From: Fibrobacter sp.
GTDB taxonomy: Bacteria; Fibrobacterota; Fibrobacteria; Fibrobacterales; Fibrobacteraceae
Assembly (NCBI GenBank): GCA_024399035.1
Contig: JAKSID010000014.1
Span: 1-64,000, forward strand
DNA: 64,000 nucleotides
Reading direction: 5' to 3'
The notes beneath the pieces are model-generated. The model was given only the letters and a program-made list of their open reading frames with translations, ran no database searches and was not told the origin of the DNA. Made by a program: the position numbers and the translations under genes. Positions 29,957-36,782 of the stretch are shown piece after piece (within the stretch, counting starts at the first letter, position 1; the number at the start of each line of letters is the position of its first letter).

Positions 29957-30157
29957 TTAGACTTCCCAAATCTGATTGGGAAGTTTTCCAATATCGCGAA
30001 AGTCCAACTTGCCTGCGGTGGGCGCAGAAACACTGACCAGGCGAGCCAAGGGCTTACCGGCACGTTCAATTACGATTTCTTCGTCTTTCAAGGCAACCTG
30101 GTTCAACAGATTGCCAAAATTTTGGCGGACTTCCATTGCAGATACGACTTTTGCCAT
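29957..30157 (-). CDS. Phd/YefM-family antitoxin, no toxin partner
   Basis: A 66-residue DNA-binding antitoxin. The whole N-terminal fold is recognisable: VVSAMEVRQNFGNLLNQVALKDEEIVIERAGKPLARLVSV is the standard Phd/YefM pattern, where the second strand carries the xxxxxGKPxAxL motif. The short C-terminal tail (KLPNQIWEV) would bind a toxin. No toxin ORF (Doc, YoeB, PIN/VapC) lies on either side: downstream it runs into the stop of a plus-strand lipoprotein gene 4 bases away. It is an orphan regulator or relic. Confidence 0.8.
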   Translation of the reverse strand: MAKVVSAMEVRQNFGNLLNQVALKDEEIVIERAGKPLARLVSVSAPTAGKLDFRDIGKLPNQIWEV

Positions 30158-30180
30158 AGTGATTAAAAAATAGTTATATT
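30151..30180 (+). promoter_or_regulatory. Promoter of xseA, leaderless type
   Basis: TTGCCA (30151-30156), 18-base spacer, TATATT (30175-30180). Only 6 bases separate the -10 box from the GTG start, so the message should begin at or next to the start codon. The -35 box overlaps the start of the phd-like gene, so the antitoxin could repress or interfere here. Confidence 0.6.
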
Positions 30181-30186
30181 CTCATC

Positions 30187-31485
30187 GTGGAAACAGAAGT
30201 AAGATCCTATACAGTCACGCAATACATGACTTCCCTTAAGCGAAAAGTGGAAGAAACCCCGGCTGTATGGGTTCGCGGGGTCATTACCCAGATTTCTATC
30301 AAGCCCAACATCGTCTATTTGACCATCGCGGACTTTGAAGAAGGTAACGTAAAGCCAATTTCTGTTATTAGCCTTTCCTGTTTCGCAGGCCGATTTGCAG
30401 CCATCCAGGCAAAAATTGCTTCCTGCGGAAAGCCTTTTGAACTAAAGGACCAGTTGAAAGTCAGTTTCCTGATCAAGGCGGAGATTTACGTTCCCTACGG
30501 AAAGTTGCAGGCCCAAATTTTGGACATTGATCCGGTGTACACTATTGGCGAGCTAGCCATGACCCGCATGGAGATCCTGCGAAAGCTTGGTGCCGAAGGT
30601 CTTATTGAAAAGAACAAGCTTTTGGAGTTGGCACCCGCCCCCATGCGCATTGGCCTTATTACCGGCGAAGGCACCGCCGCCTTCAAGGACTTCACCTCCA
30701 AGCTAGCTGAGTCGCCCTTCGCATTCAAGGTCATGACGATTTATGCGAAAATGCAGGGCGCAGAAACAGAGCCCACGGTGCTTGCAGCACTTGAAAAGCT
30801 GGCGAAAGTAGACGCCATCGACGTGGTCTGCATTGTTCGCGGCGGCGGCTCCAAGACAGATTTGAATTTCTTTGACAGCGAAGCGCTTTGCCGCGCGGTA
30901 GCCAACTTCCCTGTACCCGTGTTTACAGGCATTGGTCACGAAATCGACAAGAGCCTGCTGGACGAAGTTGCCTACCAGAGTTGCATCACTCCTACTGACA
31001 CCGCAAAGCGACTCATCGACCGCGTGGCCGACAGCTGGAGCCAAATGCAGGTTCTTGCACAGAACATTGCCGCCGCCGCGAAAGACGCTCTGGTCCAGGA
31101 GAATCAACACCTGTCTAATTGCGGCGTAAACTTGCAGCAGAAAGTTTCCAAACGCATCCAGAACGAAAAGACGAAGCTGGCACTTTGCGGCAACAACATG
31201 AAGCGTTCCCTGCAGTTCGTCATCCGTGACGAAAAGGCCCGCATAGAACGAAACATCGAAGGCCTTAAGCAAGGTTCCCGCAAGATTCTGGACTTGGCAA
31301 AGTCCAACTTTAATTTGTCTGAAATCAAAGTGAAGACAGCCGACCCTGCAACCGTTCTTGCCAAGGGCTACTCTTTGACTTTAACCTCTGACGGAAAATT
31401 CGTTCGTAATGCAAGCCAGCTTAAATCCGGCGACACGCTGACCACCCGCCTCCGCGACGGCAGCGTCACCTCCGTGGTGCAATAA
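30187..31485 (+). CDS. xseA: Exodeoxyribonuclease VII large subunit
   Basis: The catalytic large subunit of exonuclease VII, which degrades single-stranded DNA (432 residues). An N-terminal OB-fold (about 1-110, VWVRGVITQIS and VPYGKLQAQILDIDPV) precedes the nuclease domain with APMRIGLITGEGTAAFKDF, VVCIVRGGGSKTDLNFFDSEALCRAVA, PVFTGIGHEIDKSLLDEVA and the CITPTDTAKRLIDRV region. Then come a coiled-coil arm and the C-terminal ATVLAKGYSLTL...LKSGDTLTTRLRDGSV. The small subunit xseB is not adjacent. The GTG start is supported by the promoter position. Confidence 0.93.
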   Translation: METEVRSYTVTQYMTSLKRKVEETPAVWVRGVITQISIKPNIVYLTIADFEEGNVKPISVISLSCFAGRFAAIQAKIASCGKPFELKDQLKVSFLIKAEIYVPYGKLQAQILDIDPVYTIGELAMTRMEILRKLGAEGLIEKNKLLELAPAPMRIGLITGEGTAAFKDFTSKLAESPFAFKVMTIYAKMQGAETEPTVLAALEKLAKVDAIDVVCIVRGGGSKTDLNFFDSEALCRAVANFPVPVFTGIGHEIDKSLLDEVAYQSCITPTDTAKRLIDRVADSWSQMQVLAQNIAAAAKDALVQENQHLSNCGVNLQQKVSKRIQNEKTKLALCGNNMKRSLQFVIRDEKARIERNIEGLKQGSRKILDLAKSNFNLSEIKVKTADPATVLAKGYSLTLTSDGKFVRNASQLKSGDTLTTRLRDGSVTSVVQ

Positions 31486-31899
31486 TTATTCAAAAACCGG
31501 CAGTGTCTCAATTTTTTCAAAACGCTTGGTCGCCCCGTCCAGCTTAAAGTAGCGGACAGCATCCCCCAAGGAAAGCATCACGTAGTTTGGCGTCAAAATC
31601 TGCAGGTACTTGTTCAACTGTTGCTGCAGCCCGGGCCACGTATATTCCCCCGGAGCCTTGCATTCCACCAAAAGCCAAGGCTTATCCATACCAGCCCCGG
31701 CCCTAAAGTTGTGAACCATAATGTCCACGCGGTCGTCCGTCTTGGGATCGACGGTACTCAGCGGAAATTCCACCGCAATCAAATGTTCCGGAACTTTCAC
31801 CTGATCCAGCAAATAACGGATAGTCGCCTGGCGCACGTGTTCTTCGGGCGTTGCAGGGACATCCTTCTTGCGGATGGGATCGTATAGGTAATCAGGCAC
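31486..31899 (-). CDS. Stand-alone HsdR_N/PD-(D/E)XK-type protein
   Basis: A 137-residue protein matching the N-terminal domain of type I restriction HsdR (HsdR_N_2 type), a PD-(D/E)XK nuclease fold: RQATIRYLLDQVKVPEHLIAVEF, then Asp59 (RVDIMV) and Glu79/Lys81 (WLLVECKAP), followed by QLNKYLQILTPNYVMLS. The catalytic Asp, Glu and Lys are all present. No methylase or specificity genes lie nearby, so it is not a restriction system. Such single-domain proteins are common in Bacteroidota and relatives, and their role is unknown. It is convergent with xseA, with adjacent stops. Confidence 0.8.
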   Translation of the reverse strand: MPDYLYDPIRKKDVPATPEEHVRQATIRYLLDQVKVPEHLIAVEFPLSTVDPKTDDRVDIMVHNFRAGAGMDKPWLLVECKAPGEYTWPGLQQQLNKYLQILTPNYVMLSLGDAVRYFKLDGATKRFEKIETLPVFE

Positions 31900-32021
31900 G
31901 AGGCTCGAGGCTCCAGGTTAAAAGTGGCGAGCAGATAACTATGGACCGAAAAATAGAAAACAGGCTTTTTTTCATTTTTCAGCAACTCCCAATTTCCCAC
32001 AAAAAAATGTTTATCAAAGCC

Positions 32022-32050
32022 TTGACGTGCGTAAAATCCAGAAGTATATT
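32022..32050 (+). promoter_or_regulatory. Strong promoter of the alanine leader unit
   Basis: TTGACG (32022-32027) and TATATT (32045-32050) with an exact 17-base spacer. The -10 box ends 7 bases before the ATG of the leader ORF, so the transcript should start at that codon. Confidence 0.75.
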
Positions 32051-32057
32051 AGTGGGC

Positions 32058-32162
32058 ATGAACAAGATCTTTGAACAGAATATCATCGCAGCAGCGATTG
32101 CGGCAGGCGCGGCGGAAGCACGAGCCTGTGTTAAATCATGCGCGACTGTTCAGGAATTGTAA
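32058..32162 (+). CDS. Alanine-rich leader peptide (candidate attenuator ORF)
   Basis: A 34-codon ORF starting exactly where the transcript is predicted to start. It holds 10 Ala codons, 9 of them within codons 11-23 (order A A A I A A G A A E A R A), and ends in TAA. The peptide itself probably has no function; its translation would sense charged tRNA-Ala. It resembles known leader peptides (trpL, leuL, hisL) in size and design, but no alanine example is known to me. The aminotransferase gene at 32348, which resembles the alanine-forming AlaA, follows the terminator. Confidence 0.6.
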   Translation: MNKIFEQNIIAAAIAAGAAEARACVKSCATVQEL

Positions 32163-32236
32163 AGGTCTGTACGCAACCAACAAGCGAAACAGATAAAAGG
32201 AATTCAAAGGGCAGTCCCAAACGGACGGCCCTTTTT
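32072..32236 (+). promoter_or_regulatory. Candidate alanine attenuator: alternative hairpins and terminator
   Basis: Four pairing regions are visible. Region 1 TGAACAG (32072-32078, codons 5-7) is the perfect complement of CTGTTCA (32146-32152, codons 30-32). Region 2 GACTGTTC (32144-32151) can instead pair with GGGCAGTC (32209-32216) over 8 bp with two G-U. That last segment is also the 5' arm of the terminator (GGGC..GTCC, 32209-32217, with GGAC..GCCC, 32223-32231, then TTTTTATTTT). A ribosome stalled in the Ala run (codons 11-23) leaves region 2 free to form the antiterminator; one at the stop codon covers it and the terminator forms. The remaining gap to 32347 is AT-rich and may hold a weak second promoter. 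Confidence 0.6.
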
Positions 32237-32347
32237 ATTTTGCCCGAATTTAAACCAAAACCCATAACTAAAGGAAAATTCTCTAGAATTTTATTCTATA
32301 ATTAACCCATTAATTAAGAGAATTATAATACCTCTAAGGAGTATAAA

Positions 32348-33652
32348 ATGAGAAAGCGTTTGCTTACCGAAGGTGCCAAGGAACTGTCTTACGAAATCCG
32401 TGAGATCGTTAAGAAGGCGAACCTCCTGAAAACGCTGGGCATGCCGAAGATCCACTGGGAAAACATCGGCGACCCCATTGAAAAGAAGTGCCAGGTTCCC
32501 GAATGGATCAAGGACATCGTTGTGGACCTTTCCAAGGAAAACCGTTCCTATGGTTACTGCCCGTCCAAGGGTATGCTTGAAACTCGCGAATTCATCGTGA
32601 AGGAAACCAACAAACTGGGCGGCGCCCAGATTACCGTTGACGACATCCTGTTCTTCAACGGCCTCGGTGATGCAATCGCCACATTGTACAGCCTCCTGTC
32701 CATGACCACCCGTATCATTGGACCGTCTCCTGCATACAGCACCCACAGCTCTGCAGAAGCAGCACATGCACACTCTGCTCCTATCACCTACAGCATGAAG
32801 CCGGAAAACCACTGGTATCCGGACCTGGAAGAACTTGAAAACAAGGTGAAGTACAACCCCTCCATCGCTGGCATCCTGATTCTGAATCCGGACAACCCCA
32901 CTGGCATGGTCTATCCTCTTGAAATTCTCCAGAAGATCGTTGATATCGCAAAGCGTTACAACCTGTTCATCATCTGCGACGAAATCTACAACAAGATTAC
33001 CTACAATGGAGCAAAGGCTTACGCTCTGGCCGAATACATCGGCGACGTTCCGGCTATCGCTCTGAAGGGTATTTCCAAGGAATATCCGTGGCCGGGTGCA
33101 CGTTGCGGCTGGGCTGAATACTACAACCGCGACAAGGACGAACAGTTCGACGCCTTCTGCCGCGCTCTTGACAATGCCAAGATGGTTGAAGTCTGCTCCA
33201 CCACACTTCCCCAGATGACCATTCCTCGCGTGCTGGGCGATCCTCGCTTCATGGAACACCGCCAGGCTTTGAACGAAAAGATTGGCCGTCGCTCCGCCAT
33301 CATTAACGAAATTCTTTCCGACATTCCGGAACTGTATTTCAACCCCACCTACGGTGCATTCTACAACACCATCATCTTCCGTGAAGGTGTTCTGAACAAC
33401 CACCAGAGCCTGAAGATCGACAATCCGCAGATCAAGGCCAAGGTTGAAGAATGGTGCTCCAAGACCGAAAATTTGGACTACCGTTTCGTGTACTATCTGT
33501 TGGGCGCAAAGGGTATCTGCGTGGTGCCCAGCACCAGTTTCTGCACCGACCTCAAGGGATTCCGCGTGACGCTGCTTGAAGAAGACGAAGCAGAACTGCG
33601 CAGCGTGTTCACCACCATCCACGACGCCATCATCGAGTACTTGCATAGCTGA
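32348..33652 (+). CDS. PLP-dependent aminotransferase, AlaA-like
   Basis: A class I/II fold-type I aminotransferase (434 residues), cytoplasmic, probably glutamate-pyruvate (alanine) transaminase. LSYEIREIVKKA...NIGDP, YGYCPSKGMLETREFI, ILNPDNPTGMVY, IICDEIYNKITY and the PLP lysine in GISKEYPWPGARCGW (Lys244) match the alanine/aspartate group, and the beginning is closest in layout to E. coli AlaA. The alanine-rich leader upstream supports alanine as product. CTAAGGAG precedes the ATG. It is a single gene; the spermidine transporter follows after a repeat array. Confidence 0.82.
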   Translation: MRKRLLTEGAKELSYEIREIVKKANLLKTLGMPKIHWENIGDPIEKKCQVPEWIKDIVVDLSKENRSYGYCPSKGMLETREFIVKETNKLGGAQITVDDILFFNGLGDAIATLYSLLSMTTRIIGPSPAYSTHSSAEAAHAHSAPITYSMKPENHWYPDLEELENKVKYNPSIAGILILNPDNPTGMVYPLEILQKIVDIAKRYNLFIICDEIYNKITYNGAKAYALAEYIGDVPAIALKGISKEYPWPGARCGWAEYYNRDKDEQFDAFCRALDNAKMVEVCSTTLPQMTIPRVLGDPRFMEHRQALNEKIGRRSAIINEILSDIPELYFNPTYGAFYNTIIFREGVLNNHQSLKIDNPQIKAKVEEWCSKTENLDYRFVYYLLGAKGICVVPSTSFCTDLKGFRVTLLEEDEAELRSVFTTIHDAIIEYLHS

Positions 33653-33655
33653 ATC

Positions 33656-33722
33656 AGTGGTTAGTAAACAGTGGTTAGTAAACAGTAATCACTAACCACT
33701 AGCCACCAACCACTAGCCACTA
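33656..33722. repeat. CAGTGGTTAGTAAA / ACTAACCACTAG repeat array before potA
   Basis: Two direct copies of CAGTGGTTAGTAAA are followed by reverse-orientation copies (ACTAACCACTAGCCACC and AACCACTAGCCACTA), so the whole can fold as a long imperfect hairpin. It fills the gap between the aminotransferase stop and the potA ATG, ending 3 bases before that ATG. A shorter version lies before the aconitase gene at 15863. Confidence 0.75.
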
Positions 33723-33725
33723 AAT

Positions 33726-34811
33726 ATGAAATCTTTCGATCTTCAGGTTAAGAACGTTTCCAAGAGCTTCGGCGAAAAGGCCGTGCTCAAGGGAATTGAC
33801 GTATTCATCAAGGACGGTCAGTTCGTGACTCTGCTTGGTCCTTCCGGTTGCGGAAAGACCACGCTTCTCCGTATTATCGCCGGTTTTGAAAAGGCCGACG
33901 CAGGCGAAGTGATTCTTAGCGGCGAGGTTATCTCCAACAAGTCGCCCGCGCACCGCCCCATCAATACGGTGTTCCAGAGCTACGCCCTGTTCCCCCACCT
34001 GAACGTGTTCAACAATATCGCGTTTGGCCTCAAGAGCCACAAGGTTCCCAAGGACGAAATCGAGAAGCGTGTGAACGCCATGATGGAAATGGTGAACATC
34101 GTAGACCTGAAGAACGAAATGCCCGCAACCTTGAGCGGCGGTCAGAAGCAGCGTGTTGCCTTGGCCCGCGCCTTGGTGAACGAGCCCGACATTCTTTTGC
34201 TGGACGAACCATTAAGCGCTCTTGACGCCAACCTGCGTAAAAAGCTCCAGGTGGAACTGAAGGAAGTCCAGAAGAAGACCGACACTACTTTCATTATGGT
34301 GACCCACGACCAGGACGAAGCGATTGCAGTAAGCGACCGCGTGCTGGTGATGTACAAAGGCGCCATCGTGCAAGATGGCACTCCCGAAGATGTTTACGAG
34401 CATCCGGTAAATCGCTTTGTGGCAACCTTCATGGGTGAATGCAACATTCTTGAAAGCGAACGTGTTACAGACAAACTAGCAAAGGTCGCTTTTGGCGAAC
34501 TGGTGCTTGAAAAAGATCCGCAGTGGGCCGCGGCCCCCGAAGGCAAGTGCTGCGGTGGCATCGCCATCCGTATGGAAGACATCCATGTTTGCACAGCAGG
34601 CGAAAACTTTGACAACAATGTTTTCGATGCCCGCATCCTGGAGAGAATTTTCCGTGGCGACTACTGGGAACTGATTGCAGAACTCCCCGGCGTTGGCAAT
34701 GCAGAAAGCCTCAAGCTTCGTGTGATGACCGACCCCGACGAAATCTACAATCCGGGCGACCAGGTCAAGCTGTACATGGAACCCCAGTACCTGCAGGTCC
34801 TGGCGGACTAG
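33726..34811 (+). CDS. potA: Spermidine/putrescine ABC transporter ATP-binding protein
   Basis: The ATPase of a polyamine importer (361 residues). Walker A is LGPSGCGKTT (37-46), with the Q-loop at FQSYALFPHLNV, signature LSGGQKQRVALARAL (about 137), Walker B LLLDEPLSALD, H-loop VTHDQDEA, and a C-terminal TOBE domain (GECNILESERV...LYMEPQYLQVL). The gene order potA-(tRNA)-potB-potC-potD is that of the PotABCD system. No clear Shine-Dalgarno is seen: the repeat array abuts the ATG. Confidence 0.9.
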   Translation: MKSFDLQVKNVSKSFGEKAVLKGIDVFIKDGQFVTLLGPSGCGKTTLLRIIAGFEKADAGEVILSGEVISNKSPAHRPINTVFQSYALFPHLNVFNNIAFGLKSHKVPKDEIEKRVNAMMEMVNIVDLKNEMPATLSGGQKQRVALARALVNEPDILLLDEPLSALDANLRKKLQVELKEVQKKTDTTFIMVTHDQDEAIAVSDRVLVMYKGAIVQDGTPEDVYEHPVNRFVATFMGECNILESERVTDKLAKVAFGELVLEKDPQWAAAPEGKCCGGIAIRMEDIHVCTAGENFDNNVFDARILERIFRGDYWELIAELPGVGNAESLKLRVMTDPDEIYNPGDQVKLYMEPQYLQVLAD

Positions 34812-34899
34812 TCCCACAACACCCGCGGACTAAATTTTTTCATTTTTACCTCTTACCAACTTAGTCTCTTTATACTATCTTTGGGCGCACCTAAGAAAA

Positions 34900-34971
<72 letters not shown>

Positions 34972-34977
34972 CTACAG

Positions 34978-35013
34978 AAAAGCCGTCAGTTCTATGCTGG
35001 CGGCTTTCTTTTT
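34978..35013 (+). terminator. Terminator after tRNA-Thr
   Basis: AAAGCCGTCAG and CTGGCGGCTTT form a hairpin (one T-G) followed by a T-run. Confidence 0.8.
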
Positions 35014-35068
35014 ATAAATCGGCAAAGGTCCTTCAAGCGTCGGCGATTTTCTTTCTATCTTTTCTCAC

Positions 35069-35968
35069 ATGCAAACCGAAGTCTTCGAAGGAAAGCTTAC
35101 TACCCGCGCACGCATGCGCAAGTTCGGCGTTCTGCTTACAGGCCCCGGCATGCTGTGGCTCATTGTTTTTCTTCTGTTGCCCACTGCATTTCTGATGGTC
35201 CTGGCTTTCGCACAGCGCGGTAGCTACGGCAGCATCAACTGGGACTTTTCCATTGAAAACCTGAGGCGTCTTGTTGGCTTTAGTTCCTTCGGTTGGTCTC
35301 CCGACAATTTGCTTATCCTTTGGCGCAGTCTTAAGATTGCAGTCATCACCACCGTTCTTTGCATTGCCTTTGGCCTGCCTATGGCTTTCTGGATTGCAAA
35401 CCACGGCAAGACCATGCGCGCCTTTTTGTTCGCACTGATCATGGTGCCTAGCTGCACCAACCTGGTCATCCGCACTTCCGCCTGGATGACTTTGCTGGGC
35501 CCCGATATGTTCCCCGCAGAAATTGCAAGATTCTTCGGAATCATCGCCGAAGGTGAATCCCTTTACCCGGGCAGTTTTGCAGTCTATATCGGCATGGTCA
35601 GTTCCATGCTGCCTTTCGCGGTCCTCCCCCTCTACACCAGCGTGGAGCGCTTGGATTGGGGCGTGGTCGAAGCTAGCCGCGACTTGTACGCAGGCCCACT
35701 TCGCACATTCTATCACGGCATTCTCTCCCAGATGATGCCGGGCATTGTGGCAAGCGTTATCTTGACTTTGGTCCCTAGCCTTGGCATGTACGTCATTAGC
35801 GATTTGCTAGGCGGCGGTAAGTATATGTTGATCGGCAACCTGATTCAGCAGCAGTTTGGAGCCGCCATGGACTGGCCCTTCGGCGCCATGCTGGGCTCCG
35901 TGTTGATCATTTGCAGTGTTATCAGCCTGGTTATTTTCCAGCGCGTGGGAGGCAAGAACTTTGTCTAA
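35069..35968 (+). CDS. potB: Spermidine/putrescine ABC transporter permease
   Basis: A 299-residue inner-membrane permease with about six helices (PGMLWLIVFLLLPTAFLMVLAF at the start; VITTVLCIAFGLPMAFWI; AVYIGMVSSMLPFAVLPLY; VASVILTLVPSLGMYVI; GSVLIICSVISLVIF). The cytoplasmic EAA loop is EASRDLYAGPLRTFYHGILSQMMPGI, the contact for PotA. TATCTT lies 7 bases before the ATG and no ribosome site is seen, suggesting its own leaderless promoter after the tRNA terminator. The end overlaps potC by 8 bases. Confidence 0.9.
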   Translation: MQTEVFEGKLTTRARMRKFGVLLTGPGMLWLIVFLLLPTAFLMVLAFAQRGSYGSINWDFSIENLRRLVGFSSFGWSPDNLLILWRSLKIAVITTVLCIAFGLPMAFWIANHGKTMRAFLFALIMVPSCTNLVIRTSAWMTLLGPDMFPAEIARFFGIIAEGESLYPGSFAVYIGMVSSMLPFAVLPLYTSVERLDWGVVEASRDLYAGPLRTFYHGILSQMMPGIVASVILTLVPSLGMYVISDLLGGGKYMLIGNLIQQQFGAAMDWPFGAMLGSVLIICSVISLVIFQRVGGKNFV

Positions 35969-36782
35969 GAAAAAGCTTCCCTTTATTACCGTGATCCTTT
36001 CCATCATCGGTTTTATCCTGCTTTACCTGCCCATGTTCCTTGTGGTGGAACAGAGTTTTAATGCAAGCAAGCACGGCCAGAGCTGGGGCGGCTTCACCCT
36101 GGATTGGTACACCGGGTTGGCAGACAACGCCATGGTCCAGACCACCACCGTCAACACCTTGATTTTGGCAGTTGTCAGCACCATCATAGCAACCGTTCTT
36201 GGAACGCTCCTGGCCATCGGTATCCACCGCACGCCCTGGGGCAAAAAGATGCAGTATTTCTACGACATGAGTATCAACGTTCCCGTGGTGACGCCGGATA
36301 TCTTGATGGCCATTGCCCTTGTTTCTGTATTCGCCCTGTTCCGCAGCTGGACTTCCCTATTCGACCCGGGCATGCTTACCATGGTCATCGCCCACGTTAC
36401 CCTTGAAACCAGCTTTGTGGTTCTTGTGGTGCAGAGCCGACTGGTGAGCATCGGCAAAGACCAGATCGAGGCCGCCCGCGACCTGTATGCCAGCACCGCC
36501 GGTGCATGGTTCCGTGTGATCATCCCGCAACTTTCTACGGCCATTATTTCCGGCGCCCTTCTGGCATTTACCCTGTCTTTGGACGACTTTATCCTAAGTT
36601 TCTTTACCAGCGGCCCCGAATCCCAGACATTGCCCCTGTACATCTACGGATCCCTTAAACGAGGCATTTCTCCCCAGATTCACGCCTTGTCTTCCATTAT
36701 CTTTGGCCTTACATTGTTTGTAATGGTTTTGATGGTGTTCCGCGGAATCCGAAAAGAACGGAAATTGGCCCGAAAGCTCTAA
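35961..36782 (+). CDS. potC: Spermidine/putrescine ABC transporter permease
   Basis: A 273-residue permease partner of PotB. The start is taken as the TTG at 35961, which has GGGAGG eight bases upstream and overlaps the potB stop; no ATG fits before it without running deep into potB. Helices are visible at the N-terminus (FITVILSIIGFILLYLPMFLVVE) and in TLILAVVSTIIATVLGTLLAIGI, MAIALVSVFALF and FVMVLMVF. The EAA loop is EAARDLYASTAGAWFRVIIPQLSTAI. Confidence 0.88.
   Translation: MSKKKLPFITVILSIIGFILLYLPMFLVVEQSFNASKHGQSWGGFTLDWYTGLADNAMVQTTTVNTLILAVVSTIIATVLGTLLAIGIHRTPWGKKMQYFYDMSINVPVVTPDILMAIALVSVFALFRSWTSLFDPGMLTMVIAHVTLETSFVVLVVQSRLVSIGKDQIEAARDLYASTAGAWFRVIIPQLSTAIISGALLAFTLSLDDFILSFFTSGPESQTLPLYIYGSLKRGISPQIHALSSIIFGLTLFVMVLMVFRGIRKERKLARKL

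Follow-up and report, generated by a model that had tools for sequence, protein, structure and literature searches.

The gene that begins at position 32348 of the 64,000-nt stretch of Fibrobacter DNA analysed here (the window) is preceded by a short, alanine-rich reading frame and an intrinsic terminator, which raises the question of whether the supply of alanine decides how far transcription proceeds into it. Our analysis leads us to conclude that this leader very probably works by ribosome-mediated transcription attenuation, sensing the supply of alanyl-tRNA and controlling a putatively alanine-forming aminotransferase in cis. The same reading had been put forward in the original prediction, and is now supported by conservation across the genus, by covariation of the competing folds and by a computed switch between them.

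Anatomy of the leader and its gene

All features of the locus lie on the plus strand. The distal promoter P1 (32022-32050), recognized by direct reading and by a consensus scan, reads TTGACG-N17-TATATT, with its -35 element at 32022-32027 and its -10 box at 32045-32050. Seven nucleotides past the -10 box stands the ATG of a 34-codon ORF (32058-32162) with the product MNKIFEQNIIAAAIAAGAAEARACVKSCATVQEL (34 aa), for which homologous leaders were aligned from 44 loci of the genus. Because the spacing between -10 box and start codon is only 7 nt, the leader mRNA is predicted to be leaderless, with transcription beginning at the start codon itself. Nine alanines fall within codons 11-23 (32088-32126), the putative regulatory codons, and another is found at codon 29.

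The ORF overlaps a set of mutually exclusive pairings. Region 1 (TTTGAACAG, 32070-32078, codons 5-7) contains TGAACAG at 32072-32078, which is perfectly complementary to CTGTTCA at 32146-32152, and two U-G pairs lengthen this helix to 32070-32078/32146-32154. Region 2 (32144-32154) has region 3 as its alternative partner, GACTGTTC at 32144-32151 pairing with GGGCAGTC at 32209-32216 over 8 bp, two of which are U-G. In the window fold this antiterminator is extended by GAATT (32154-32158), which pairs with 32201-32205 and has an equivalent, GAAAC:GUUUC, in the other main clade of leaders; a middle hairpin (32165-32194), also present in the window fold, lies between the antiterminator arms. Region 3 doubles as the 5′ part of an intrinsic terminator that it forms with region 4 and a U tract (32206-32236). 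Its portion at 32209-32236 reads GGGCAGTCC-CAAAC-GGACGGCCC-TTTTT, with one A-G mismatch in the stem and A-U pairs that lengthen the stem to 32206-32234. A further hairpin lies within the Ala run itself (32103-32129), as predicted both by the window fold and by RNAalifold, and carries an A-U to G-C compensatory change at alignment columns 82/102. Direct reading of the window confirmed the promoter, the ATG 7 nt downstream of it and the Ala-rich ORF that the original prediction had described, together with the perfect 1:2 complementarity, the 8-bp 2:3 pairing and the terminator.

The window's leader RNA folds with a z-score of -4.45 relative to dinucleotide shuffles, none of 200 shuffles being as good. 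When its synonymous codons were shuffled, joint 1:2 and 2:3 pairing was kept in 0 of 200 samples, and redrawing the synonymous codons of six leaders abolished joint pairing in nearly all samples, the worst leader keeping it in 18 of 200. The Rfam covariance models, among them those for the T-box and for the Leu, His, Trp, Thr and Phe leaders, left the leader unmatched up to E=1 in a search of positions 30000-36000.

The gene behind the leader (32348-33652) encodes a class I/II aminotransferase, which scores 691.9 bits against NCBIfam PRK06855 (cut-off 443), a family of aminotransferases to which no substrate is assigned. Among solved structures it comes closest to the E. coli glutamate-pyruvate aminotransferase AlaA (4cvq, 1.4e-40) and to a transaminase of P. 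furiosus (1xi9, 9.4e-40). Since these are the closest solved relatives, the resemblance to AlaA on which the original prediction relied holds up and "AlaA-like" is a fair label; judged by this homology, the enzyme would form alanine in vivo. Both the gene and the gene order are conserved in the genus.

Conservation and covariation within Fibrobacter

Upstream regions of the orthologues were oriented and scanned, and the 44 with a homologous leader entered the alignment; the named relatives are Fibrobacter, mostly rumen and horse-gut genomes. The distance from the -10 box to the start codon, which is ATG or GTG, is exactly 7 nt in 42 of these 44 leaders, and the box itself is TATATT in 42/44. 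The -35 element begins with TTGA in every case and is TTGACA in 31/44, with a spacer of 17-18. The leaders range from 33 to 45 codons with 9-15 Ala each, and 29.5% of all frame-0 residues are Ala. The 44 leaders served to build a covariance model which, run on 80 genomes of the genus, matched 58 of them with E < 1e-25, once per genome, plus one remnant (E 0.0087). For 30 matches the flanking sequence was retrieved, and in every case the aminotransferase gene follows immediately; the model revealed no extra copies before other genes in the 80 genomes. Outside the genus, no leader was present among the other Fibrobacterota or the Bacteroidota orthologues examined.

The leaders fall into two main clades, the smaller of which, clade B, includes the window (7 leaders, FEQ...AAGAAEARACV...), while the larger, clade A (37 leaders), encodes FGQ...AASPAAARAI[MV]GLSRETKICKA; one locus, L010, is placed near the window's clade by the gene tree. 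About a dozen orthologues in the genus have neither leader nor terminator, with no other regulator obvious at these genes, and one locus is cut by a contig end. Three loci (L009, L016 and L075) retain the terminator hairpin alone and have lost the leader ORF, i.e. they carry degrading attenuators. At several others, among them L014, L015, L017, L069 and L078, repeat-like blocks (CTGGATCCTTCGCCCTTTACAGGGCTCAGGATGAC...) are inserted between terminator and gene, and these have the appearance of short repeats, either mobile or intergenic.

Comparison of the two clades separates selection on the RNA from selection on the peptide. The leader peptides are well conserved in their N-terminal half. Their C-terminal half shows no relationship between the two clades, either in sequence or in frame, yet the RNA pairings are retained. 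Clade A reads region 2 as CTG TCC and clade B reads it as aCT GTT C, the spacing between ATG and region 2 being a multiple of 3 in 37/37 clade-A leaders (75-105 nt) and 1 mod 3 in 7/7 clade-B leaders. As the clade-A distance changes only by multiples of 3, the frame is held; as region 2 remains paired despite its clade-specific reading frame, it is the RNA pairing and not the peptide that is selected there. Between region 1 and the conserved end, leaders likewise vary in length in frame, through added Ala-rich codons. Substitutions in the Ala columns are distributed over codon positions 1/2/3 as 18/15/49, compared with 79/47/106 elsewhere.

Both competing folds are conserved. The terminator fold (1:2, middle hairpin and 3:4) is paired in 94.3% of cells and the antiterminator fold (2:3, the GAAAC:GUUUC extension and the middle hairpin) in 92.2%, each with 7 pairs changed on both sides; among the individual helices, 1:2 is 98.7%, 2:3 97.7% and 3:4 96.5% paired, and the middle hairpin has 91% and 79% of cells paired with five pairs changed on both sides. 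None of 500 column shuffles equals either fold in covariation score, in cells paired or in cells changed on both sides, and in both folds the pairing collapses on a shift by one column. Unguided RNAalifold recovered 1:2, the Ala-run hairpin and 3:4. In the 1:2 helix, columns 17/126 switch from G-C to A-U between clades, and columns 121/194/205, located in regions 2, 3 and 4, change jointly, A,U,A replacing G,C,G, a three-way covariation. Truly compensatory changes in the core helices are few on the gene tree, about one event each at 17/126, 121/194/205 and 119/196, and G-C/G-U swaps at the terminator base arose 10-12 times, and neither of the two positions concerned shows a broken pair. A U tract follows 3:4 in most leaders, and some leaders end in interrupted T runs. 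The covariation is strong but not overwhelming, because the shuffle control leaves relatedness in. The alignment across Fibrobacter genomes proposed in the original prediction, which had named lack of conservation as evidence against attenuation, thus revealed conserved Ala runs as well as compensatory changes.

Predicted switching, a candidate second promoter and other readings

In the mechanism that we propose, the P1 transcript would start at the leader ATG. With alanine plentiful, the ribosome would clear the Ala codons and cover or pass region 2, whereupon 1:2 would re-pair and 3:4 would form the intrinsic terminator. With alanyl-tRNA short, the ribosome would halt on the first Ala codons and, because the first Ala pair lies 2-3 codons past region 1 in 42/44 leaders, region 1 would be buried within it; 2:3 would then pair ahead of the synthesis of region 4, no terminator would form and the aminotransferase gene would be transcribed. 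According to the original prediction, a ribosome at the stop codon covers region 2. This holds for the window's clade, where 5 nt separate the end of region 2 from the stop. It does not hold for the larger clade, in which the stop lies about 25 nt further; there the switch must depend on passage and release, giving 1:2 plus 3:4.

Folding calculations on the 44 leaders, with an assumed footprint that puts the edge of the ribosome 15 nt beyond the first base of the first Ala codon, reproduce the switch. The terminator helix 3:4 has a median probability of 0.96 in free RNA and a probability of 0.999 when region 2 is covered, and a ribosome at the first Ala pair brings 2:3 to a median of 0.9995; as long as region 4 is not yet transcribed, P(2:3) does not fall below 0.88 in any of the 44. 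Eight of the 44 free leaders favour the antiterminator at equilibrium, in a calculation that ignores translation and the order of folding. The window's own stalled RNA still prefers the terminator at equilibrium (P 0.99), so its antiterminator must win kinetically, before region 4 is made.

A candidate second promoter, P2, is situated 3′ of the terminator. Its -10, TATAAT (32297-32302), belongs to a TTCTATAATT-type motif that occurs about 45 nt upstream of the aminotransferase start codon in most orthologues of the genus, leader-less ones included. P2 has no clear -35 and was not paired with one in a promoter scan, which flagged a neighbouring TTAACC-N16-TATAAT at 32302-32329. We also observed that within 32280-32347 the TTCTATAATT box stands between the inverted repeat AAATTCT / AGAATTT, a candidate promoter with operator. 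Should P2 be active, the attenuator would modulate expression and not set it alone; it may govern only the distal transcript, i.e. part of expression.

The extreme form of this would be that P2 mainly drives the gene and the attenuator is a relic or minor element that contributes little. The occurrence of a P2-like motif in most orthologues even after leader loss, and the retention of the terminator alone in some genomes, would fit such a history, but purifying selection clearly acts on P1 and on the leader, antiterminator and terminator in 58 genomes, and we consider this reading unlikely. P2 might instead keep up a base level of the enzyme while the terminated leader RNA, as a leaderless mRNA, or the Ala-rich peptide also acts in trans on other genes; this possibility, modelled on Sinorhizobium rnTrpL/peTrpL, has in our estimation only a slim chance of being correct.

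Two other readings deny the Ala codons their role as a sensor of alanine. In one, the leader is a general translation-stress attenuator whose Ala codons are mainly structural, and any ribosome slowed or blocked by an antibiotic or by general starvation opens the gene. Such breadth has a precedent in the whiB7 uORF attenuator, which responds to many stalls, alanine starvation included (PMC10727445, PMC13393426), and the hairpin within the Ala run shows strong conservation as an RNA structure. Ala is nevertheless retained in a variable, weakly structured stretch while the third base varies, in-frame insertions add Ala, the first Ala pair holds its spacing to region 1 and the controlled gene is an alanine aminotransferase homologue; we regard this explanation as quite improbable. 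It is very unlikely that the unit is a gene for an Ala-rich small protein, equipped with a promoter and a terminator of its own and without a part in regulating the gene downstream: its self-contained layout and the conserved N-terminal half of the peptide would suit one, yet the leader varies between 33 and 45 codons, the pairings outlast the unrelated C-terminal halves of the clades, the competing antiterminator is conserved and the position upstream of one same gene is constant. The reading as an alanine-sensing attenuator accommodates an Ala-rich short ORF, a terminator, a competing antiterminator and a 1:2 protector, all of which are present, with disruption of 1:2 by the ribosome predicted from the geometry; at the level of sequence, the leader has every property of ribosome-mediated attenuators for which we tested.

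Relation to known attenuators and to other Fibrobacter leaders

Ribosome-mediated attenuators control the trp, his, leu and thr operons of E. coli and Salmonella (PMC1183508). The Fibrobacter leader shares with them a leader peptide rich in the cognate codon, exclusive 1:2/3:4 versus 2:3 pairings and a terminator before a gene that is here putatively biosynthetic. It differs from them in its alanine signal, its predicted leaderless start and its occurrence in the phylum Fibrobacterota, as well as in the placement of region 1 just 5′ of the regulatory codons, where it would be buried behind the A site of the stalled ribosome, and in having a hairpin in the Ala run that separates region 1 from region 2. 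A leaderless leader ORF, predicted in Fibrobacter, is also found in the classical trpL/rnTrpL attenuator of Sinorhizobium meliloti, whose RNA begins with the leader ATG itself (PMC7298713); that system, however, concerns tryptophan and trpE(G) in an alphaproteobacterium, and both its RNA and its peptide have additional functions in trans.

In the whiB7/wblC attenuator of mycobacteria and Streptomyces, stalling on a uORF leads to an antiterminator (PMC10727445, PMC13236596). The mycobacterial whiB7 uORF attenuator is reported to respond to alanine starvation, to be required for the response to it, and to raise aspC, and with it alanine synthesis, indirectly (PMC13236596, PMC10727445, citing Poulton 2024). 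This attenuator controls a transcription factor and answers many ribosome stresses, whereas the Fibrobacter leader would control an enzyme gene in cis; with an aminotransferase and not a WhiB-type factor behind it, the leader falls outside the whiB7 type. Mycobacterial polycysteine short ORFs (Canestrari 2020, as cited in PMC13236596) are reportedly leaderless, use cognate codons like the Fibrobacter leader and regulate the operon behind them, but sense cysteine and serve other operons. The original prediction knew of no described alanine leader. This stands for direct sensing, since our search of the open literature found no alanine-codon attenuator and no attenuation in Fibrobacter; it needs qualification for alanine starvation as such, in view of the reported whiB7 response. 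Since leaderless attenuators are known and whiB7 is reported to respond to alanine starvation, neither feature is new alone, and we judge that the leader extends classical ribosome-mediated attenuation to a new amino acid.

Candidate leaders with this layout for Leu and Trp were also observed in the genus. A candidate Leu attenuator precedes a leuA-like gene on the minus strand of the window (49623-49447; TTGCCA-N17-TATATT-N7-ATG), with the candidate leader MKKILDLRLLLCIALRDTEARF (49587-49519, minus strand, six Leu) and a terminator near 49480-49447; the gene itself matches TIGR00973 with E 1e-97, under the family cut-off. A Leu-rich leader near a -10 was present at 26 of the 31 leuA-like loci of the genus that were examined. 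A candidate Trp attenuator, at a trpE locus (L225, genome G044), consists of the leader MNFVTNATLNRRWWRGL near a GATATT box, with a terminator hairpin behind the leader. The same simple scan detected no Trp leader at L226 and L227, and a simple scan detected no similar leaders before hisG and ilvB.

With this leader, alanine would join the amino acids that are sensed directly by classical attenuation, with the gene of an alanine-forming enzyme controlled in cis. Alanine is among the amino acids most used in proteins, and the leader would therefore provide a test of models that tie attenuator sensitivity to the usage of the sensed codon. Taken together with the Leu and Trp leaders, it suggests that Fibrobacter, which are major fibre degraders of the rumen and hindgut, probably regulate amino-acid synthesis via leader peptides, apparently on leaderless transcripts.
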